64,000 nucleotides of DNA from Pseudonocardiales bacterium (lineage in GTDB: Bacteria > Actinomycetota > Actinomycetes > Mycobacteriales > Pseudonocardiaceae), in contig JAHEXI010000001.1 of assembly GCA_023252195.1 (NCBI GenBank), positions 124,001 to 188,000 on the forward strand, written 5' to 3'. This document shows, piece after piece, positions 57,395-64,000 of the stretch (position 1 is its first letter; every line of letters begins with the position of its first letter). A program made the position numbers and the translations under genes. Under the pieces are notes generated by a model that was not told the DNA's origin, searched no databases, and saw only the letters and a list, made by a program, of their open reading frames with translations.

Positions 57395-57457
57395 CCGTGA
57401 ACTCGACAAGACTGACGTTCGGGCGCACCAAAAACGTCGCTCTTGTCGAGTTCACGG
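57395..57457. terminator. hairpin after gatD built from the GTGAACTCGAC repeat
   Basis: Perfect 17-bp arms CCGTGAACTCGACAAGA (57395-57411) and TCTTGTCGAGTTCACGG (57441-57457), 29-base loop that contains GACGTT and AACGTC, which can extend the pairing. It lies between the convergent gatD and uppP genes, so it can end transcription both ways. The motif is shared with two other intergenic sites in the window. Confidence 0.85.
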
Positions 57458-57488
57458 CACGAGGGCCCCGGCGGCGGCACGCCCGCGG

Positions 57489-58415
57489 TCAGTGCGCAAC
57501 GAGCCAGATCAGGCTCGCGGTGCCGAACAGGACGCAGTAGATCGCGAACGGGGTGAGGGTGCGGGTCTCGAAGTAGCGGGTCAGGAAGCGGACCGCGAGG
57601 TAAGCGCTGACGAACGAGGCGATGCTGCCGGCGATGATCGGCCCGTGGATGCCTGCGCCGAGTGGGCCGACCAGGTCGGGGATCTTCAGGGCACCGGCGG
57701 CCAGGATGACCGGCGTGGCCAGTAGGAAGGAGAAGCGAGCGGCGTCCTCATGGGACAGCCCGCGCAGCAGTCCGGCGGCCATCGTCACGCCGGACCGGCT
57801 CAACCCCGGTAACAACGCCAGTACCTGCGCGGAACCGATCAGCGCGCCGCGCCCGAGGGACATCTGGGCCAGCCGGGCATCCGCGGCGGCGTCGACGTCT
57901 CGCGCTGATCCGGGTCCGCCCACTGCGGTCGTCGCCGGCACCGGGGCGGTCGCGTCAGCCCGTCGACGGAGCAGCTCACCGATGTAGAGCACCACCCCGT
58001 TGGCGATCAGGAACGCCGCGGCCGGGATCGGTCGGCCCAGCGTGGTGCGGAACAGATGCTCCAGCAGCAGACCACAGATGCCGACCGGGATGGTCCCGAC
58101 GATGAGCAGCCAGGCGAGTCGCTCACCAGACGTGCGGAGTCGCCGGTAGCGCAGGGAGCTGACGAAGCCGCCGACGATGCGTAGCCAGTCGCGCCAGAAG
58201 AAGACCAGCAGCGCCGCGGCGGTGGCCACATGCAGCCCGACGATGAACGCCAGGTAGGGCGATTCCGGGGCCGATACGCTCAAGTCGTGCGCCCAGCGAC
58301 CGCCTACCAGCGCCGGAACCAGGATGGAGTGCCCCAGGCTGGAAACTGGGAACAGCTCGGTGACGCCTTGGAAGGCGCCTACCACTATCGCCTCGAGATA
58401 GGTCAGCTCACTCAC
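57489..58415 (-). CDS. uppP: undecaprenyl-diphosphate phosphatase UppP (BacA)
   Basis: 308 residues from GTG 58415 (GAGAGGAGCC upstream). The two catalytic motifs are complete: AFQGVTELFPVSSLGHSILV near residue 15 (E-L-x-P-V-S-S-x-G-H) and LPGLSRSGVTMAAGLLRG near residue 200. Eight membrane helices. A 30-residue Ala/Pro/Thr linker (RADATAPVPATTAVGG) is inserted between helices 4 and 5. The enzyme recycles the lipid carrier of peptidoglycan synthesis, which matches the neighbouring murT-gatD. It also gives bacitracin tolerance in many bacteria. Confidence 0.95.
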   Translation of the reverse strand: MSELTYLEAIVVGAFQGVTELFPVSSLGHSILVPALVGGRWAHDLSVSAPESPYLAFIVGLHVATAAALLVFFWRDWLRIVGGFVSSLRYRRLRTSGERLAWLLIVGTIPVGICGLLLEHLFRTTLGRPIPAAAFLIANGVVLYIGELLRRRADATAPVPATTAVGGPGSARDVDAAADARLAQMSLGRGALIGSAQVLALLPGLSRSGVTMAAGLLRGLSHEDAARFSFLLATPVILAAGALKIPDLVGPLGAGIHGPIIAGSIASFVSAYLAVRFLTRYFETRTLTPFAIYCVLFGTASLIWLVAH

Positions 58416-58490
58416 TGGGCTCCTCTCGGGTGGCGTGGCGTGGCGTGGCGCCGCACCGCGGCCCGGCAGGCCGCCTTCTAGCCTGCCGGT

Positions 58491-59462
58491 ATGACACGTA
58501 CGCGGCTGTACCGTAGCGGTGTTCTCGAGCTCGAAAATTTTCCGGTGCAGGACATCTCCGACTACATCAGGCAGCCAGGTGTCACGGTCTGGCTGGACAT
58601 GTGTGCGCCCGACGCGGCTGGCCTGGCCGCGATCAGCGAGGAGCTCGATCTGCACCGGCTCGCCGTCGAGGATGCCGTCCAGGAACGCCAACGGCCGAAG
58701 CTCGACCGGTACGACAGCCACCTGTTCGTCACCGCCTACGCCGTCGCGCTGGACGTCGCCACCGGGGAACTGGCGACCTTTGAGGTGGCGGCGTTCGTCA
58801 CCCACAATGCGTTGGTCACCGTGCGTAAATCAGACCAGTTCGATATCGACGGTGTGGTAGCTCGCTGGGACGCGTCAACAGACCTGGCCAAACACGGGGT
58901 CTCGTTTCTGCTGCACGGTTTGCTCGACTATGTAGTCGACGGCCACTTCGCTGCCGTGCAGACCCTCGACGATGAGATCGAAACGCTAGAAGATCGGCTG
59001 TTCGACGACAAGCGCTCCGATTGGTCCGTGCAACGACGATCGTTCGAGCTGCGCAAAAGTCTCGTGCAGTTGCGCCGAGTCGTACTGCCGATGCGCGAGG
59101 TGGTGAACTCGCTGATGCGCCGTGATCTGCACACCTTTGACGAGGCAATGACGCCCTATTACCAGGACGTGTACGACCACATACTCAGGGCTACCGAGTG
59201 GACCGAGAGCCTGCGCGACTTGGTCACGGCCATCCTGGAGACCAACCTGACGATCCAGGGCAACCGGCTCAACGTGATCACCAAGCAGGTCACCAGCTGG
59301 GCCGCCATCATCGCGGTACCGACCGCGATCACTGGGTTCTACGGGCAGAACGTGCCCTATCCGGGGTTTGGTCACGCATCCGGGTTCTACGTCTCAACCA
59401 TCATCATTGTCGTGCTGTCGGTCGGGTTGTATGTGTTGTTCCGCAACCGTGACTGGATCTAG
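58491..59462 (+). CDS. corA: CorA-type divalent cation transporter
   Basis: 323 residues from ATG 58491. The large N-terminal cytoplasmic funnel ends in the long stalk helix (RSFELRKSLVQLRRVVLPMR, NRLNVITKQVTSWAAIIAVP). Two membrane helices at the C-terminus flank the pore loop FYGQNVPYPGFG; the canonical GMN is GQN here, which occurs in other actinobacterial CorA-like proteins. The protein ends VGLYVLFRNRDWI. It mediates Mg2+ or Co2+/Zn2+ flux. A relic of its last ten codons occurs at 63891-63920. Confidence 0.92.
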   Translation: MTRTRLYRSGVLELENFPVQDISDYIRQPGVTVWLDMCAPDAAGLAAISEELDLHRLAVEDAVQERQRPKLDRYDSHLFVTAYAVALDVATGELATFEVAAFVTHNALVTVRKSDQFDIDGVVARWDASTDLAKHGVSFLLHGLLDYVVDGHFAAVQTLDDEIETLEDRLFDDKRSDWSVQRRSFELRKSLVQLRRVVLPMREVVNSLMRRDLHTFDEAMTPYYQDVYDHILRATEWTESLRDLVTAILETNLTIQGNRLNVITKQVTSWAAIIAVPTAITGFYGQNVPYPGFGHASGFYVSTIIIVVLSVGLYVLFRNRDWI

Positions 59463-59504
59463 CTCGCTCATGGCCGCTATTCGGCGCAAGACCATCGCAG
59501 TAGT

Positions 59505-59795
59505 TCATGAGGCGCCTACGGTTGACAAGCCTTCCCCGTCGTGCTGTCCAGTCATCAGCTGACGACGGGAGGTAATCCCAAGCTTCGTATAGACCTGCTG
59601 GAGATGGTATTCGATGGTCTTGACCGACAGAGTGAGATTAGCGGCGATTGTCTTATTGCTGTGCCCGGCGGCGGCGAGCCGTGCGACCCGTTTTTCCTGA
59701 ATGGTCAACCTGGTCGCCTCCTCGTGGTTACGGCGACGTCGGCCACCGGCCGCCGCAAACTCCTCGCGGACCTGTTCGGAGAGCCAACCGGGAGC
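59505..59795 (-). pseudogene. LuxR-type regulator, C-terminal HTH fragment
   Basis: EQVREEFAAAGGRRRRNHEE then IQEKRVARLAAAGHSNKTIA and NLTLSVKTIEYHLQQVYTKL GITSRRQL: the DNA-binding domain of a large LuxR/AAA regulator. The ATPase and TPR parts are missing. At about 59795 it is fused to the N-terminus of a DJ-1 protein in another frame, so a deletion removed the 3' part of that gene together with most of the regulator. Confidence 0.85.
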
Positions 59796-59914
59796 CGGCT
59801 CAGCAGGTGGAGCTCGGCATTTTCCTCGGCGAAGCGGTGCTGGTAATAGGCGATCTCCGGCTCATAATAGTCGCTTTCAATGAGAAGAGCGATCCTTTTT
59901 TCGTTCAGTTTCAT
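59796..59914 (-). pseudogene. DJ-1/PfpI-family protein, N-terminal 40 residues only
   Basis: From ATG 59914: MKLNEKRIALLIESDYYEPE then IAYYQHRFAEENAELHLLSR L. This is the first strand and helix of a DJ-1/PfpI protein, ten bases downstream of the ThDP enzyme stop and on the same strand, so it was the third gene of that operon. The rest is deleted. Confidence 0.8.
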
Positions 59915-59926
59915 GGGTAACTCCAC

Positions 59927-61684
59927 TTACTGGCCGCATTTGATATGGCTGAGGTCGCCGGGGACGTCGCCGTCGATGACGAGGTCGATCAGGAATGGAC
60001 CTTCGGTCTCAAGCGCCGTGATAATGGCCGGCCGCACCTGGTGCCCGGTTTCCACGCGGACCGCGGGCACACCCAGCGATTCAGCGATCCGATCGAACCG
60101 GAGCTCTGGGTCGCCGAGGTCGAAGGAGGCCGGAAAGTCATGTTCCGGAAGTCCACGTTCCCGCCAGTACTGCGCACTGTTGATTTTGAGAATTCGATAA
60201 CTGCGGTTGTTGCAGACCACGATCTTGGCGCCGATCCGGTGGTGCGCGGCGGTCCACAGCGCCTGGATCGTGTACATGGCGCCGCCGTCGCCGGTGAAGC
60301 CGAACACCGTACGTTCGGGGTGAGCCAACTTGAGCCCCAGGGCTCCCGGAATCCCCACCCCCAACGAACCCCCCCGGGTCTGGAAGTAGGCGTCGGGCCG
60401 GGTCGGCACAAGGTAACGGACGAGATCGGGCGAGGTGGTGAGTGCTTCGTCGAAGACGATGATGTCGTCGGGAGCTAGCTCGGCCAGCTCGGCCATGAAA
60501 CGAGAGGCCGGCATCGGCATCTTGTCCCAGCGCGCGCGGTCGGCATTGCGCTGGCGGTCCTCTTCCTGGTGCTTAGCCGCGGAAAGCTGGCGAGAGCGCT
60601 GCGTGGCTGCCTGTTTCTGTTCGGCAGACATCTCCCGTTCCAGCGACTCAGCGAGCTGTGCCAGGGTCAGTTTGGGATCGCTGACCAGCCCGAGATCGAC
60701 CGGGAAGTTCTTCGCGATCGCGTCGGTGTCCAGGTCGATGTGAACGATTCGCGCATGTGGCGCGAAGGCGCCGTCCAGCGCGGGAAAAACCTCAGGGAAC
60801 ACGTAGGTCCCGCAGATCAGCACCGCATCGGCCCGCACCGTGACGGGCTGGCTGTCCTTGGCGAACATGTGCCCGAGCAGCCCGCGGAAATGTGGATGTG
60901 CGGCGCTCAGATTCACCTCGGATGAGTCCGCGCCCCAGACGCCCGCGCCCCAGAGCTCGGCCACCCGAGCCAGCTCCAGCTGGGCCTCCGAGAAGGCCAG
61001 CCCGTCGCCGACGATGACGATCGGATGCTCAGCTCCGGCCAGGAGTTTCGCGGCCTGGGTGACCAGGGCGGGTTCTGGTGTTGTGCGGGTGGCGAGGATC
61101 GAAGTCGGCACCACCTGCTCTGTGTTCGGCGCGTCGAGTACGTCCATCGGCAGAGCCAGGAAAACCGGACCAGTGGGAGCAGTGGTGGCGATCTTGATAG
61201 CGCGGCGCAGCATCCGCAGCAGCGATGTCGGGTGGGTGACTCGTGCCGCCCATTTGGTGACCGGCTGTGCCATGCCCACCAGATCGGCCGCCATCTGCGC
61301 GTCCATAGCGTCGTAGCGCACCCCCGCGTCGCCGGCGAGCACGACCAGCGGTGCATGGCCCCGTTTGGCCTGGTACATCATCCCGATTCCGTTGCCCAGG
61401 CCGACGCCGCTGTGCAGTTGGACCACGGCGGGCCCGTGGGTCGCACGGGAGTAGCCGTCAGCAATGCCAACCGCCACCGTCTCCTGAAGTGCGGCGACAT
61501 ACCGCACAGCCGGGCAGTCGGTGAGGGCATCGAGAAATCCCTGCTCAACGGTTCCCGGGTTGCCGAACATAAAGCGGATGTCGTCCGCAAGCAGCTGCTC
61601 GAAGAGGGCGAAGCGGCCGGTGCGGTGGCTCGCGGTCGTGTTCGTTACCGGTTGATTGAGGTCGACTCCGACGGGGGCGGTCAT
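59927..61684 (-). CDS. thiamine-diphosphate-dependent enzyme (benzoylformate decarboxylase/acetolactate synthase-like)
   Basis: 585 residues. N-terminal PYR domain: FMFGNPGTVEQGFLDALTDC, with the catalytic Glu in VAALQETVAVGIADGYSRAT near residue 70. Central domain VVPTSILATRTT... with a Rossmann-like fold. C-terminal PP domain: GIPGALGLKLAHPERTVFGF and the ThDP motif TGDGGAMYTIQALWTAAHHR IGAKIVVCNN. The FGNPG start is closest to benzoylformate decarboxylase-like members. A 25-residue Gln/Arg-rich coiled insertion (EKQKQAATQRSRQ-like) lies near residue 370. ATGA overlap with the DJ-1 gene upstream. Substrate unknown. Confidence 0.88.
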   Translation of the reverse strand: MTAPVGVDLNQPVTNTTASHRTGRFALFEQLLADDIRFMFGNPGTVEQGFLDALTDCPAVRYVAALQETVAVGIADGYSRATHGPAVVQLHSGVGLGNGIGMMYQAKRGHAPLVVLAGDAGVRYDAMDAQMAADLVGMAQPVTKWAARVTHPTSLLRMLRRAIKIATTAPTGPVFLALPMDVLDAPNTEQVVPTSILATRTTPEPALVTQAAKLLAGAEHPIVIVGDGLAFSEAQLELARVAELWGAGVWGADSSEVNLSAAHPHFRGLLGHMFAKDSQPVTVRADAVLICGTYVFPEVFPALDGAFAPHARIVHIDLDTDAIAKNFPVDLGLVSDPKLTLAQLAESLEREMSAEQKQAATQRSRQLSAAKHQEEDRQRNADRARWDKMPMPASRFMAELAELAPDDIIVFDEALTTSPDLVRYLVPTRPDAYFQTRGGSLGVGIPGALGLKLAHPERTVFGFTGDGGAMYTIQALWTAAHHRIGAKIVVCNNRSYRILKINSAQYWRERGLPEHDFPASFDLGDPELRFDRIAESLGVPAVRVETGHQVRPAIITALETEGPFLIDLVIDGDVPGDLSHIKCGQ

Positions 61685-62559
61685 GAGCGGATGGCCGATT
61701 CGGCATCGGAGCCGCTGGCCCGGTCTGGACCGCGCCAGCCGTAGTAGCGGAGCCCATGCTCGAGCACCTCGACCAACACTTTGCCGGTGGTGTACGAGTC
61801 CCCGGTGGATCGCCCGGTGATGAACGGATAGTCCGCGATCACTGAGATCTCGTGTCCGAAGTTACGGTGGAACTGGCCGTCGGGGCCGACGGCGTCGCGC
61901 AAGATGTACTCGAGTGGGTACGGCGGTGGGCCGATGTTGATGTCGGTGCCGACGAAGCCAGTGCCGTCCTGGTAGTCGTACTCGATGATGTGCCCGGTGA
62001 CGTGGCGCCCCCAGATGATGCTCTTTCGGTCGTCCTCATTACGCGCGAAAGCGAGGCAAGCAACGCCGTAGCATTCCGCGGCGATGGGCCGGTTGAGAGC
62101 GTAGAAGATGAGGATCAATTCATGGAGACGATAGTTGTTGGCCAAATCAAGGAGCGGCCCACTGCCTCCCACGATGAGGATCGCATCGTACTCGCGCTCG
62201 ATTTGGCTTTTGATCTCGTCTAAGCGGTTGTTATAGCTCTCCATCTCCCGTAAGTAGTTTGCCGAGCTGCGGTAGGGTCGCTCGGGTAGCCATCCGGAGA
62301 GGTCGAGTGGGTTGTCGAGCCGGCCTGACTCGCTGATTTCACAAGTCCTATGAGCGGTTTCCTCCGACGTCACGGTGCGGCCGAGTGGCGGGTCGATGAA
62401 GCTCGGATCCATGCTCGGCGGCAGCGGTAGCGGCCGCCTTCCTTTGTTCGTCGCGAAGATGACCTCATAGCCCTGTTTGTCCATGGCATCGAGGGGACCC
62501 ACCAACTCCTCGCCCCAGAAGCCCCATTCCGAGAGAATGCAGAGGATCTTGCGTGACAT
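61681..62559 (-). CDS. large DJ-1/PfpI-family protein
   Basis: 292 residues from ATG 62559 with GGAGGAAGGACAG upstream, longer than the usual 180-230. DJ-1 fold: KILCILSEWGFWGEELVGPL, YDAILIVGGSGPLLDLA near residue 145, and the nucleophile elbow IAAECYGVACLAFARNED near 180, where Cys sits in ECYGV instead of the common ICHG. The C-terminal GRSTGDSYTTGKVLVEVLEH closes the domain. Homologues include glyoxalases, isonitrile hydratases and chaperones. First gene of the ThDP operon. Confidence 0.85.
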   Translation of the reverse strand: MSRKILCILSEWGFWGEELVGPLDAMDKQGYEVIFATNKGRRPLPLPPSMDPSFIDPPLGRTVTSEETAHRTCEISESGRLDNPLDLSGWLPERPYRSSANYLREMESYNNRLDEIKSQIEREYDAILIVGGSGPLLDLANNYRLHELILIFYALNRPIAAECYGVACLAFARNEDDRKSIIWGRHVTGHIIEYDYQDGTGFVGTDINIGPPPYPLEYILRDAVGPDGQFHRNFGHEISVIADYPFITGRSTGDSYTTGKVLVEVLEHGLRYYGWRGPDRASGSDAESAIRS

Positions 62560-63058
62560 GGATATCTGTCCTTCCTCCGATCGTGGCTTAATGTCACGCG
62601 GTTAACACGAGTGATCTAGCCACGGATTCCGGTAGGACAGCCGCAGACGTCATCGCATCAGAAGGTCAGTGGCTGTCATGCGATACAACTGCACGTTAGG
62701 TGCCGCGAACGGTCCCGAACACCGGGATTTCCCCTGGGTTTTAGGGTCGCAAACGAGGAAGCCGGCGCGAAGATCGGCCCACTGCTGTCGTCGACTCACC
62801 TGCAGGGCTGGACGCGGGTGGCGTCAGGGCCGGTCAGCCGTCCGGCACCACCTAGCGTCACCTCAGCGGTCCGGCACGCGGCGTCTTATTACCTGGGGGA
62901 AACCCTAGTGTTGGGCTCCGTATACACGCCTACAGTCCAGATGCTTGTCCGGCGTTACAGCTCCGTCGACCCGCGGATGGCAGTAGGTCTGGATCAATGG
63001 TCACTGCAGCGGCCTGATCGAAGCGGCTTCCTCCGCAGGAGGAGCGAGGGAGATCTCG
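62560..63058. other. 500-base gap between the DJ-1 operon and the DUF4239 gene
   Basis: It holds the promoters and ribosome sites of the two flanking divergent genes (AGGAAGGACAG before the DJ-1 gene, GCAGGAGGAGCG before DUF4239). No gene is supported in between. Confidence 0.5.
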
Positions 63059-63844
63059 ATGGAACGGTTCCTCCTCGTGCACGTTCCTGGGATTCTCCTC
63101 GGATTTCTGATCGTGGGCGTTGTGGTTGCCGCGAGCCTCGCCGGTCTGTTCCTTGTCCGCAGAAGGGTCGCACTCGCCACGCTGGAGCAGCACAATGACG
63201 TGGCCGGCTTCATCATCGCCGTCATCGGCGGCCTCTACGCAGTGCTCCTTGCCTTCGTCGTGATCAGCGTCTGGGATCAGTTTGAGGCTGCGAGGGCCGA
63301 CGCTTCCCGCGAGGCGGATCTTGTCGGACTCCTCTATGCGGATGCAATCTTCTTCCCTGGCCACGCAGTATCCATAAGAACAGATCTGCGGGCGTACGCG
63401 CAGAGCGTTATCGACGATGACTGGAAGGAGATGTCGTCTCATCAGTCGGATAGCTCCAGGACCGATCGTCAGCTCCGCGTTCTTCTCGAAGATTTCCGAG
63501 CCATCCCCGTCGAGACAACCGAGGAAGGAGCCTTCTACACAGAATCAGTGAAACAGCTCTATGGCTTGGCGGACTCCAGGCGCCTTCGAGTGGATGCGAG
63601 CGGCAACGAGCTGCCAATCATCCTGTGGACCGTCTTGGCCGTGGGCGGCGTCATCACCGTCGGGTTCAGCTGCTTCTTCGGCATCTCCCACTTCGGTGCG
63701 CACGTCCTCATGGTCGCCGCCCTCGCAACCATGATCGCGCTCACGCTGTTCGTGATACTGTCGCTCGACCTACCGTTCACCGGAGATCTTCAGGTGACCT
63801 CCGACGCCATGCAACAGGCGATACGTGAGTTCTCGCACCCTTAG
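63059..63844 (+). CDS. DUF4239 membrane protein (bestrophin-like)
   Basis: 261 residues from ATG 63059 (AGGAGGAGCGAGGG upstream). Four membrane helices in the DUF4239 layout: VPGILLGFLIVGVVVAASLA, then EQHNDVAGFIIAVIGGLYAV LLAFVVISVWDQFEAARADA (the conserved WxxFxxAxxxxxxEA segment), a soluble middle with SREADLVGLLYADAI, and the C-terminal pair IILWTVLAVGGVITVGFSCF and HVLMVAALATMIALTLFVIL. The family is membrane-bound and uncharacterised. Confidence 0.85.
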   Translation: MERFLLVHVPGILLGFLIVGVVVAASLAGLFLVRRRVALATLEQHNDVAGFIIAVIGGLYAVLLAFVVISVWDQFEAARADASREADLVGLLYADAIFFPGHAVSIRTDLRAYAQSVIDDDWKEMSSHQSDSSRTDRQLRVLLEDFRAIPVETTEEGAFYTESVKQLYGLADSRRLRVDASGNELPIILWTVLAVGGVITVGFSCFFGISHFGAHVLMVAALATMIALTLFVILSLDLPFTGDLQVTSDAMQQAIREFSHP

Positions 63845-63890
63845 CCTTGATGTTTCCGGCTGCTCCGCAGGCCTCTCAGCCGGGCGGTAC

Positions 63891-63920
63891 CTGCTGTTCC
63901 GTTGCCGTGACTGGATCTAG
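63891..63920 (+). pseudogene. relic of the corA 3' end
   Basis: Ten codons LLFRCRDWI plus TAG, nearly the same DNA as the last codons of corA (LLFRNRDWI-type end at 59434-59462). Nothing of the rest of corA is present. It marks a former corA copy or a recombination scar. Confidence 0.6.
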
Positions 63921-64000
63921 CTACTGGCCGGATCTGGTATCTCTAACGGATTAACTAGACATCTCTAATAGGTGAAAAGTTGGCGACGGAGGTACGTTCA

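Follow-up and report, generated by a model that had tools for sequence, protein, structure and literature searches.

Why does a gene for a large DJ-1-like protein overlap a gene for a thiamine diphosphate (ThDP)-dependent enzyme in a Pseudonocardiales bacterium, and what might the two proteins do together? The DNA analysed here is a stretch of 64,000 nucleotides from contig JAHEXI010000001.1 (the window), and its host genome measures 4.74 Mb in 48 contigs. The chemistry of the DJ-1 family is disputed, and a reactive aldehyde or an alpha-keto acid is a plausible candidate for what the pair acts on. At the window locus lies a shortened version of a cassette that is rare, scattered in its distribution and linked to alpha-glucan genes. 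The features of the locus are as follows.

61681..62559, minus strand: DJ1L, a large DJ-1/ThiJ-like protein of 292 aa, frame intact (PF17124 59.2 bits, PF01965 29.9 bits)
59927..61684, minus strand: ThDP-dependent enzyme of 585 aa, frame intact (Pfam TPP_enzyme N, M and C; benzoylformate decarboxylase structures score best)
59792..59914, minus strand: 5' remnant of a small DJ-1/PfpI gene, about 41 codons (blastn against relative G004, tblastn against cassette small DJ-1)
59505..59786, minus strand: C-terminal helix-turn-helix (HTH) remnant of a large regulator of the LuxR family, fused to what is left of small DJ-1 (GerE domain; tails in the genus)
59468..63872, no strand: segment without counterpart in relative G008 (alignment of the window with G008)
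63873..63935, plus strand: partial corA 3' end, either a remnant or a duplicate, right of the extra segment (direct repeat D2; corA end of G004)

DJ1L and the ThDP enzyme are open from start to stop and overlap as ATGA, while the small DJ-1 and LuxR sequences are broken pieces. The initial annotation of this DNA described a 292-residue DJ-1 protein with an ECYGV elbow overlapping a ThDP gene by ATGA, with a second DJ-1 start 12 bases beyond the ThDP stop. This description is accurate in its coordinates: the ECYG motif occupies residues 162-165 of DJ1L, and the ATG of the small DJ-1 lies at 59914, 12 nt past the ThDP stop.

The pairing can be followed through 43 loci which, the window apart, were found by DJ1L alone. 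They come from 25 genome-contig matches, 8 plasmid regions and genomes of relatives. The plasmid regions were picked among the best 20 of 160 matching records, of which 14 are at least 52.9% identical and 6 are 27-30% identical. L034, a duplicate of G004, was dropped; the near-duplicate loci L036/L037, L042/G415a and L055/L056 were kept. DJ1L is followed immediately by the ThDP gene, on its own strand, in 39/43 loci (38/42 without the window), with gaps of -11 to +391 nt when start codons are chosen by a script. A further locus, L121 of genome G759, was found later in a scan of the phylum and stands outside the 43; it also has the pair. Since the neighbours are conserved in 38 of the 42 loci other than the window, the arrangement is not due to chance, and a functional pairing of DJ1L with the ThDP enzyme is very likely. 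The view of the initial annotation that the two form a unit is upheld, the genes being usually closely spaced, and the random neighbours that it named as evidence to the contrary are not what is seen.

The pair is part of a larger set of genes. Neighbours were counted within 15 kb or the shorter available flank; many flanks reach only 8 kb, so distal genes are undercounted. Within these limits a small DJ-1 gene is found in 40 of the 43 loci, an AGE-like gene in 35, GlgX in 26 and STAS proteins in 24. GMC oxidoreductases (19), VOC glyoxalase-like proteins (18), SnoaL/NTF2 proteins (18), the small protein hyp150 (18) and EthD proteins (12) follow, and then GlgE (10), TreS (10), maltokinase-like (9), anti-sigma kinase-like (7) and SpoIIE (6) genes. 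At 50% identity or more the counts are 36 for small DJ-1, 28 for AGE and 23 for GlgX. The GlgX of a Streptomyces plasmid scores above its NCBIfam cut-off (703.8 vs 640.9), solved epimerases resemble the AGE-like protein only remotely (best E 0.0057), and the small DJ-1 in its Streptomyces copy is PfpI/YhbO-like and matches the PfpI, YhbO and PH1704 structures. Two small recurring proteins, hyp150 (L069 14587-15039) and hyp141 (L070 12098-12523), match no Pfam family at E<=0.001.

The order of these genes varies. Eight annotated plasmid regions combine DJ1L-ThDP with a small DJ-1 and alpha-glucan genes in no single fixed order. Nostoc, Mastigocoleus and a largely proteobacterial group have small DJ-1 on the upstream side, and in Gemmobacter GlgX and AGE precede it. 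The second DJ-1 belongs with the pair, as the initial annotation proposed on the strength of the window, and the DJ-1/ThDP/DJ-1 layout that it read as a unit is real; it was drawn too narrowly, being only the start of a larger glycogen-linked cassette whose later order changes. Several cassettes contain or adjoin genes of the GlgX and GlgE-TreS-maltokinase glycogen/trehalose sets; to our knowledge, the known sets of this kind come without DJ-1, ThDP, AGE-like, GMC, SnoaL or EthD genes.

Genome G415 has three separate cassette copies (L080, L082, L084) with differing neighbour sets. One Trueperaceae genome has two partial cassettes, one made up of DJ1L-ThDP-hyp150 with a piece of SnoaL/NTF2 match (L041) and the other of DJ1L-small DJ-1-AGE-STAS-GlgX without ThDP (L045). 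On a Runella plasmid (L070 7306-12034), seven ester-cyclase or NTF2-like genes and one hypothetical gene lie between GMC and small DJ-1.

DJ1L is a member of the DJ-1 superfamily by its Pfam scores, which exceed the cut-offs of 30 (PF17124) and 26.6 (PF01965). Glu18 in the first loop, Cys163 at the nucleophile elbow, Tyr164 and His190 are invariant in all 38 sequences aligned (L037, L038, L043, L056 and G151 omitted), and Glu18, Cys163 and His190 would form a triad. The elbow cysteine and the first-loop glutamate are shared with the Hsp31/HchA glyoxalase III and PfpI/YhbO deglycase proteins. DJ1L differs from them in its invariant Tyr164, at which position 4p5p and 1u9c, the solved structures nearest to it in sequence, carry His, and in scores that fall below the curated deglycase and glyoxalase cut-offs (TIGR01382 36.9 vs 139.05; HchA, NF003168, 20.3 vs 365). 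Membership of a defence system was rejected for the pair, as neither DJ1L nor the ThDP enzyme has a PADLOC match. A phage origin was likewise rejected; each protein matches a single PHROG of unknown function only.

The ThDP enzyme has benzoylformate decarboxylases as its best-scoring solved structures in a sequence search. Glu68, His91, Asp466, Gly467 and Asn493 are invariant in the 31 sequences aligned (L037, L038, L042, L047, L053, L056, L080 and L086 omitted), the last three being residues of the ThDP cofactor motif GDG...NN. In the alignments, Glu68 and His91 share columns with the catalytic Glu47 and with His70 of the benzoylformate decarboxylase MdlC (1bfd family). MdlC belongs to the same ThDP enzyme family and agrees with the window's enzyme at these two positions. 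It differs at His281, where the alignment to engineered MdlC chains places Val299 in 31/31 sequences; the position of Ser26 is Thr in 27/31 and Ser in 4/31. The enzyme also differs from MdlC in its glycogen-gene neighbours and in its score against PRK07092 (NF005485), which is 305.1 bits with a curated cut-off of 493. Acetolactate synthase large subunits are likewise three-domain ThDP enzymes, and the scores against PRK07586 (304 bits) and TIGR00118 (231.7 bits) again fall below the cut-offs of 363 and 538.35. No acetolactate synthase small-subunit gene appears in the tables of the eight annotated plasmid regions, which are incomplete.

How could such a set of proteins work together? The reading preferred here, at a probability of roughly 0.4, is that a horizontally spread alpha-glucan cassette has the pair as its persistent core, and that the two enzymes act on sugar-derived carbonyls in sequence. 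The cassette comprises DJ1L, the ThDP enzyme, small DJ-1, the AGE-like epimerase, GlgX and STAS proteins, to which many copies add a GMC oxidoreductase, SnoaL-like, VOC or EthD proteins and some add GlgE, TreS and maltokinase. GlgX and the epimerase would deliver sugars out of glycogen or maltodextrin, from which oxidation or rearrangement would yield alpha-dicarbonyl or alpha-keto compounds. DJ1L, with Cys163 as nucleophile, would hydrate or rearrange the carbonyl compound and hand an alpha-keto product to the ThDP enzyme, which would decarboxylate or ligate it; small DJ-1 would act on a related carbonyl. This carbonyl chemistry of DJ1L and the ThDP enzyme is put forward tentatively. At the window locus GlgX, AGE and most of small DJ-1 are missing, and DJ1L and ThDP remain intact.

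Several findings weigh against this reading. The ThDP gene is out of reach of DJ1L in 4/43 loci (L045, L048, L051, L057), so DJ1L may act without it, and at L057 the flanking DNA covered contains none of the cassette partners. The GMC oxidoreductase, the proposed oxidation step, occurs in only 19 loci. The AGE-like gene is only 35-39% identical to the references and lies upstream in L048, L049, L051-L054 and L058. The residue after the DJ1L nucleophile is Tyr, where Hsp31-type glyoxalases have a Cys-His pair, and a glyoxalase-type reaction is therefore not assured. AGE has no match anywhere in the window's genome and a match in 2/11 genomes of the genus; this locus cannot support the complete cassette pathway.

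The same gene content can be read as protection against carbonyl stress. The cassette would then remodel glycogen and trehalose when the cell is stressed, and the DJ-1 proteins and the ThDP enzyme would only clear methylglyoxal, glyoxal or glycation adducts, with no dedicated product. The recurrence of GlgE, TreS and maltokinase-like genes fits such a role, as do the STAS, anti-sigma kinase-like and SpoIIE proteins, the VOC glyoxalase-like protein and the structural matches of small DJ-1. It leaves the near-constant ThDP partner and the AGE-like, GMC and SnoaL-like proteins unexplained, and DJ1L is without the Cys-His pair. We consider this explanation rather unlikely, if only a little less probable than the sequential action of the pair within an alpha-glucan cassette.

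Where did the window copy come from? DJ1L is found in at least seven phyla. Going by record titles or annotation, its hosts belong to Actinomycetota, Cyanobacteriota, Deinococcota (Deinococcus, Trueperaceae), Bacteroidota, Pseudomonadota, Planctomycetota and Verrucomicrobia, together with a deltaproteobacterial metagenome-assembled genome (MAG) and Citrifermentans. The pair is found in six: Actinomycetota, Cyanobacteriota, Deinococcota, Bacteroidota, Pseudomonadota and, in one MAG, Planctomycetota. A Verrucomicrobia MAG has DJ1L, small DJ-1 and AGE-like genes with ThDP not in reach; ThDP is also not in reach of DJ1L in the deltaproteobacterial MAG and Citrifermentans. Closer to the window the genes are rare. 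DJ1L (E<=1e-20) occurs in 6/397 genomes of the order, and the ThDP subfamily occurs in the same six, with eight copies of each; the ThDP limit of E<=1e-100 was chosen by the analyst, and the best 3 candidates per genome were scored. In the phylum, DJ1L (E<=1e-40) occurs in 2/396 genomes. Among 61 near genomes 21 match DJ1L at a loose E<=0.001 and only 4 match strongly; all three counts for DJ1L include the window's own genome.

Trees were built for DJ1L and ThDP of 29 paired loci. Both recover a pairing of the window with G004, an actinobacterial clade of 13 rows, Runella with Dyadobacter, the Nostocales rows and a phylum-crossing group in which Actinomadura joins three Pseudomonadota. The trees differ on Gemmobacter, which stands with Bacteroidota for DJ1L and with Planctomycetota for ThDP (92/82), and on Deinococcus and Trueperaceae, which are together for DJ1L only. 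Neither tree places the window or G004 inside the actinobacterial clade of 13 rows, and the ThDP tree sets them beside three Nostocales rows (94/95, just under the starred level). Their positions suggest that this pair was acquired from outside that clade. The patchy distribution, the plasmids and the shape of the trees together indicate that the cassette has probably spread horizontally.

The nearest relative with the pair is G004, in which DJ1L and ThDP (92% and 84% identical to the window) are followed by small DJ-1, GlgX and an AGE gene that is cut by the contig end. Longer versions of the operon are thus present in other genomes, where the initial annotation had advised that the complete form be sought. 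G008 has corA joined directly to the sequence that in the window continues from position 63873, so that 59468-63872 is extra in the window (57455-59467 corresponds to G008 15724-13716, and 63873-67246 to G008 13768-10395). G005 and G001 are also without this segment and differ further to the right. The 3' end of corA (59415-59464) is partly recopied at 63873-63935 (direct repeat D2, 50 nt, 78%); the copy and the G004 corA end are 82% identical over 57 nt, and the empty site of G008 has a single corA end. The cassette of G004 lies on the other side of corA, and G010 has its copy and corA on different contigs. We infer a rearrangement around corA. The segment missing from G008 also holds a gene for a bestrophin-like membrane protein (PF14023, window 63059-63844).

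Part of the cassette is missing at the window locus. Similarity by blastn to the intact small DJ-1 gene of G004 stops at 59792, about 41 codons in, which bears out the remark that the third gene is truncated here; by tblastn, 59774-59914 is 60% identical to intact cassette small DJ-1. Neither AGE nor GlgX has a match in the 64 kb window. Other contigs of the genome encode two GlgX-like proteins, which share 46% and 44% identity with the GlgX of the G004 cassette, so the organism can probably still debranch glycogen through other genes.

The LuxR HTH frame (59505-59708; PF00196 55.6 bits, cut-off 23.5) is in another frame and is without its N-terminal part. The piece is 76-81% identical to the ends of frames of about 930-950 residues in the window's own genome (G000), G005, G008 and G009. 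Over 249 nt its DNA is also 71% and 70% identical to two tails on contig C48 of the window's own genome. On that contig a large LuxR-type regulator has its tail in two copies (L125 2919-3213 and 3511-3805, 89% over 295 nt). Because similar tails end such frames across the genus, the piece most likely came from a resident regulator and is probably not a cassette gene. LuxR as a regulator of the operon was rejected on account of these tails of roughly 930-aa frames together with poor matches in the 43 loci, where the hits with the best E-values, leaving the window aside, reach 34% identity over 58 residues and 39% over 49. The HTH had been taken as part of the unit; it looks instead like the stray tail of a genus-typical regulator.

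Has the pair, then, lost its function in this genome? The loss of GlgX, AGE and most of small DJ-1 from the locus and the fusion of the junction to a stray LuxR tail would suit a dying remnant. Against this, both frames are open and nonsynonymous changes are few relative to synonymous ones. Between the window and G004, synonymous (dS) and nonsynonymous (dN) distances are 0.51 and 0.043 for DJ1L (dN/dS about 0.08) and 0.57 and 0.096 for ThDP (dN/dS about 0.17). Polarised amino-acid changes on the window and G004 branches number 5 vs 7 for DJ1L (9 unassigned) and 17 vs 23 for ThDP (45 unassigned), with no excess on the window branch for either. At the level of sequence the pair is without sign of decay, although a very recent deletion of the rest would look the same. 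The pair also stands without AGE or small DJ-1 within 8 kb in Oscillatoria (L040). A pair without function here is considered doubtful.

It is less probable still that the cassette is a biosynthetic cluster for a specific small molecule, in which alpha-glucan sugars would feed a ThDP carboligase and SnoaL, EthD and GMC proteins would carry out tailoring. The frequency of these three families, the stretch of the Runella plasmid described above and a patchy, partly plasmid-borne distribution are in keeping with the idea. The candidate tailoring genes vary by locus, whereas small DJ-1, AGE and GlgX recur, and no recurring carrier-protein or resistance gene is seen in the eight annotated regions (incomplete tables, no dedicated search). 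A standard operon for acetolactate synthase, or for the benzoylformate decarboxylase of the mandelate pathway, would account for the PRK07092 and PRK07586 matches and the best-scoring structures but is highly improbable: the full match to a known acetolactate synthase operon that the initial annotation named as counter-evidence is not borne out by the sub-threshold scores, Val299 replaces the MdlC histidine, and the incomplete tables of the eight regions hold no ilv or mandelate gene.

The remark in the initial annotation that it knew of no described system with this layout agrees with a search of open-licence papers, in which no description of the cassette was found; this is weak evidence as the search terms were generic. 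Possibly, if at somewhat less than even odds, the cassette encodes a new pathway, passed between bacteria of at least six phyla, that turns stored alpha-glucan into a specific carbonyl-derived product, in which a Cys-Tyr DJ-1 protein feeds a dedicated ThDP enzyme, with partner-switching control in some lineages. The near-constant ThDP partner and the recurring glycogen context of DJ1L provide a genetic handle on the true substrate of a DJ-1 protein. The recurrence of the pair across phyla suggests a useful, portable function that current annotation splits into generic enzyme names.

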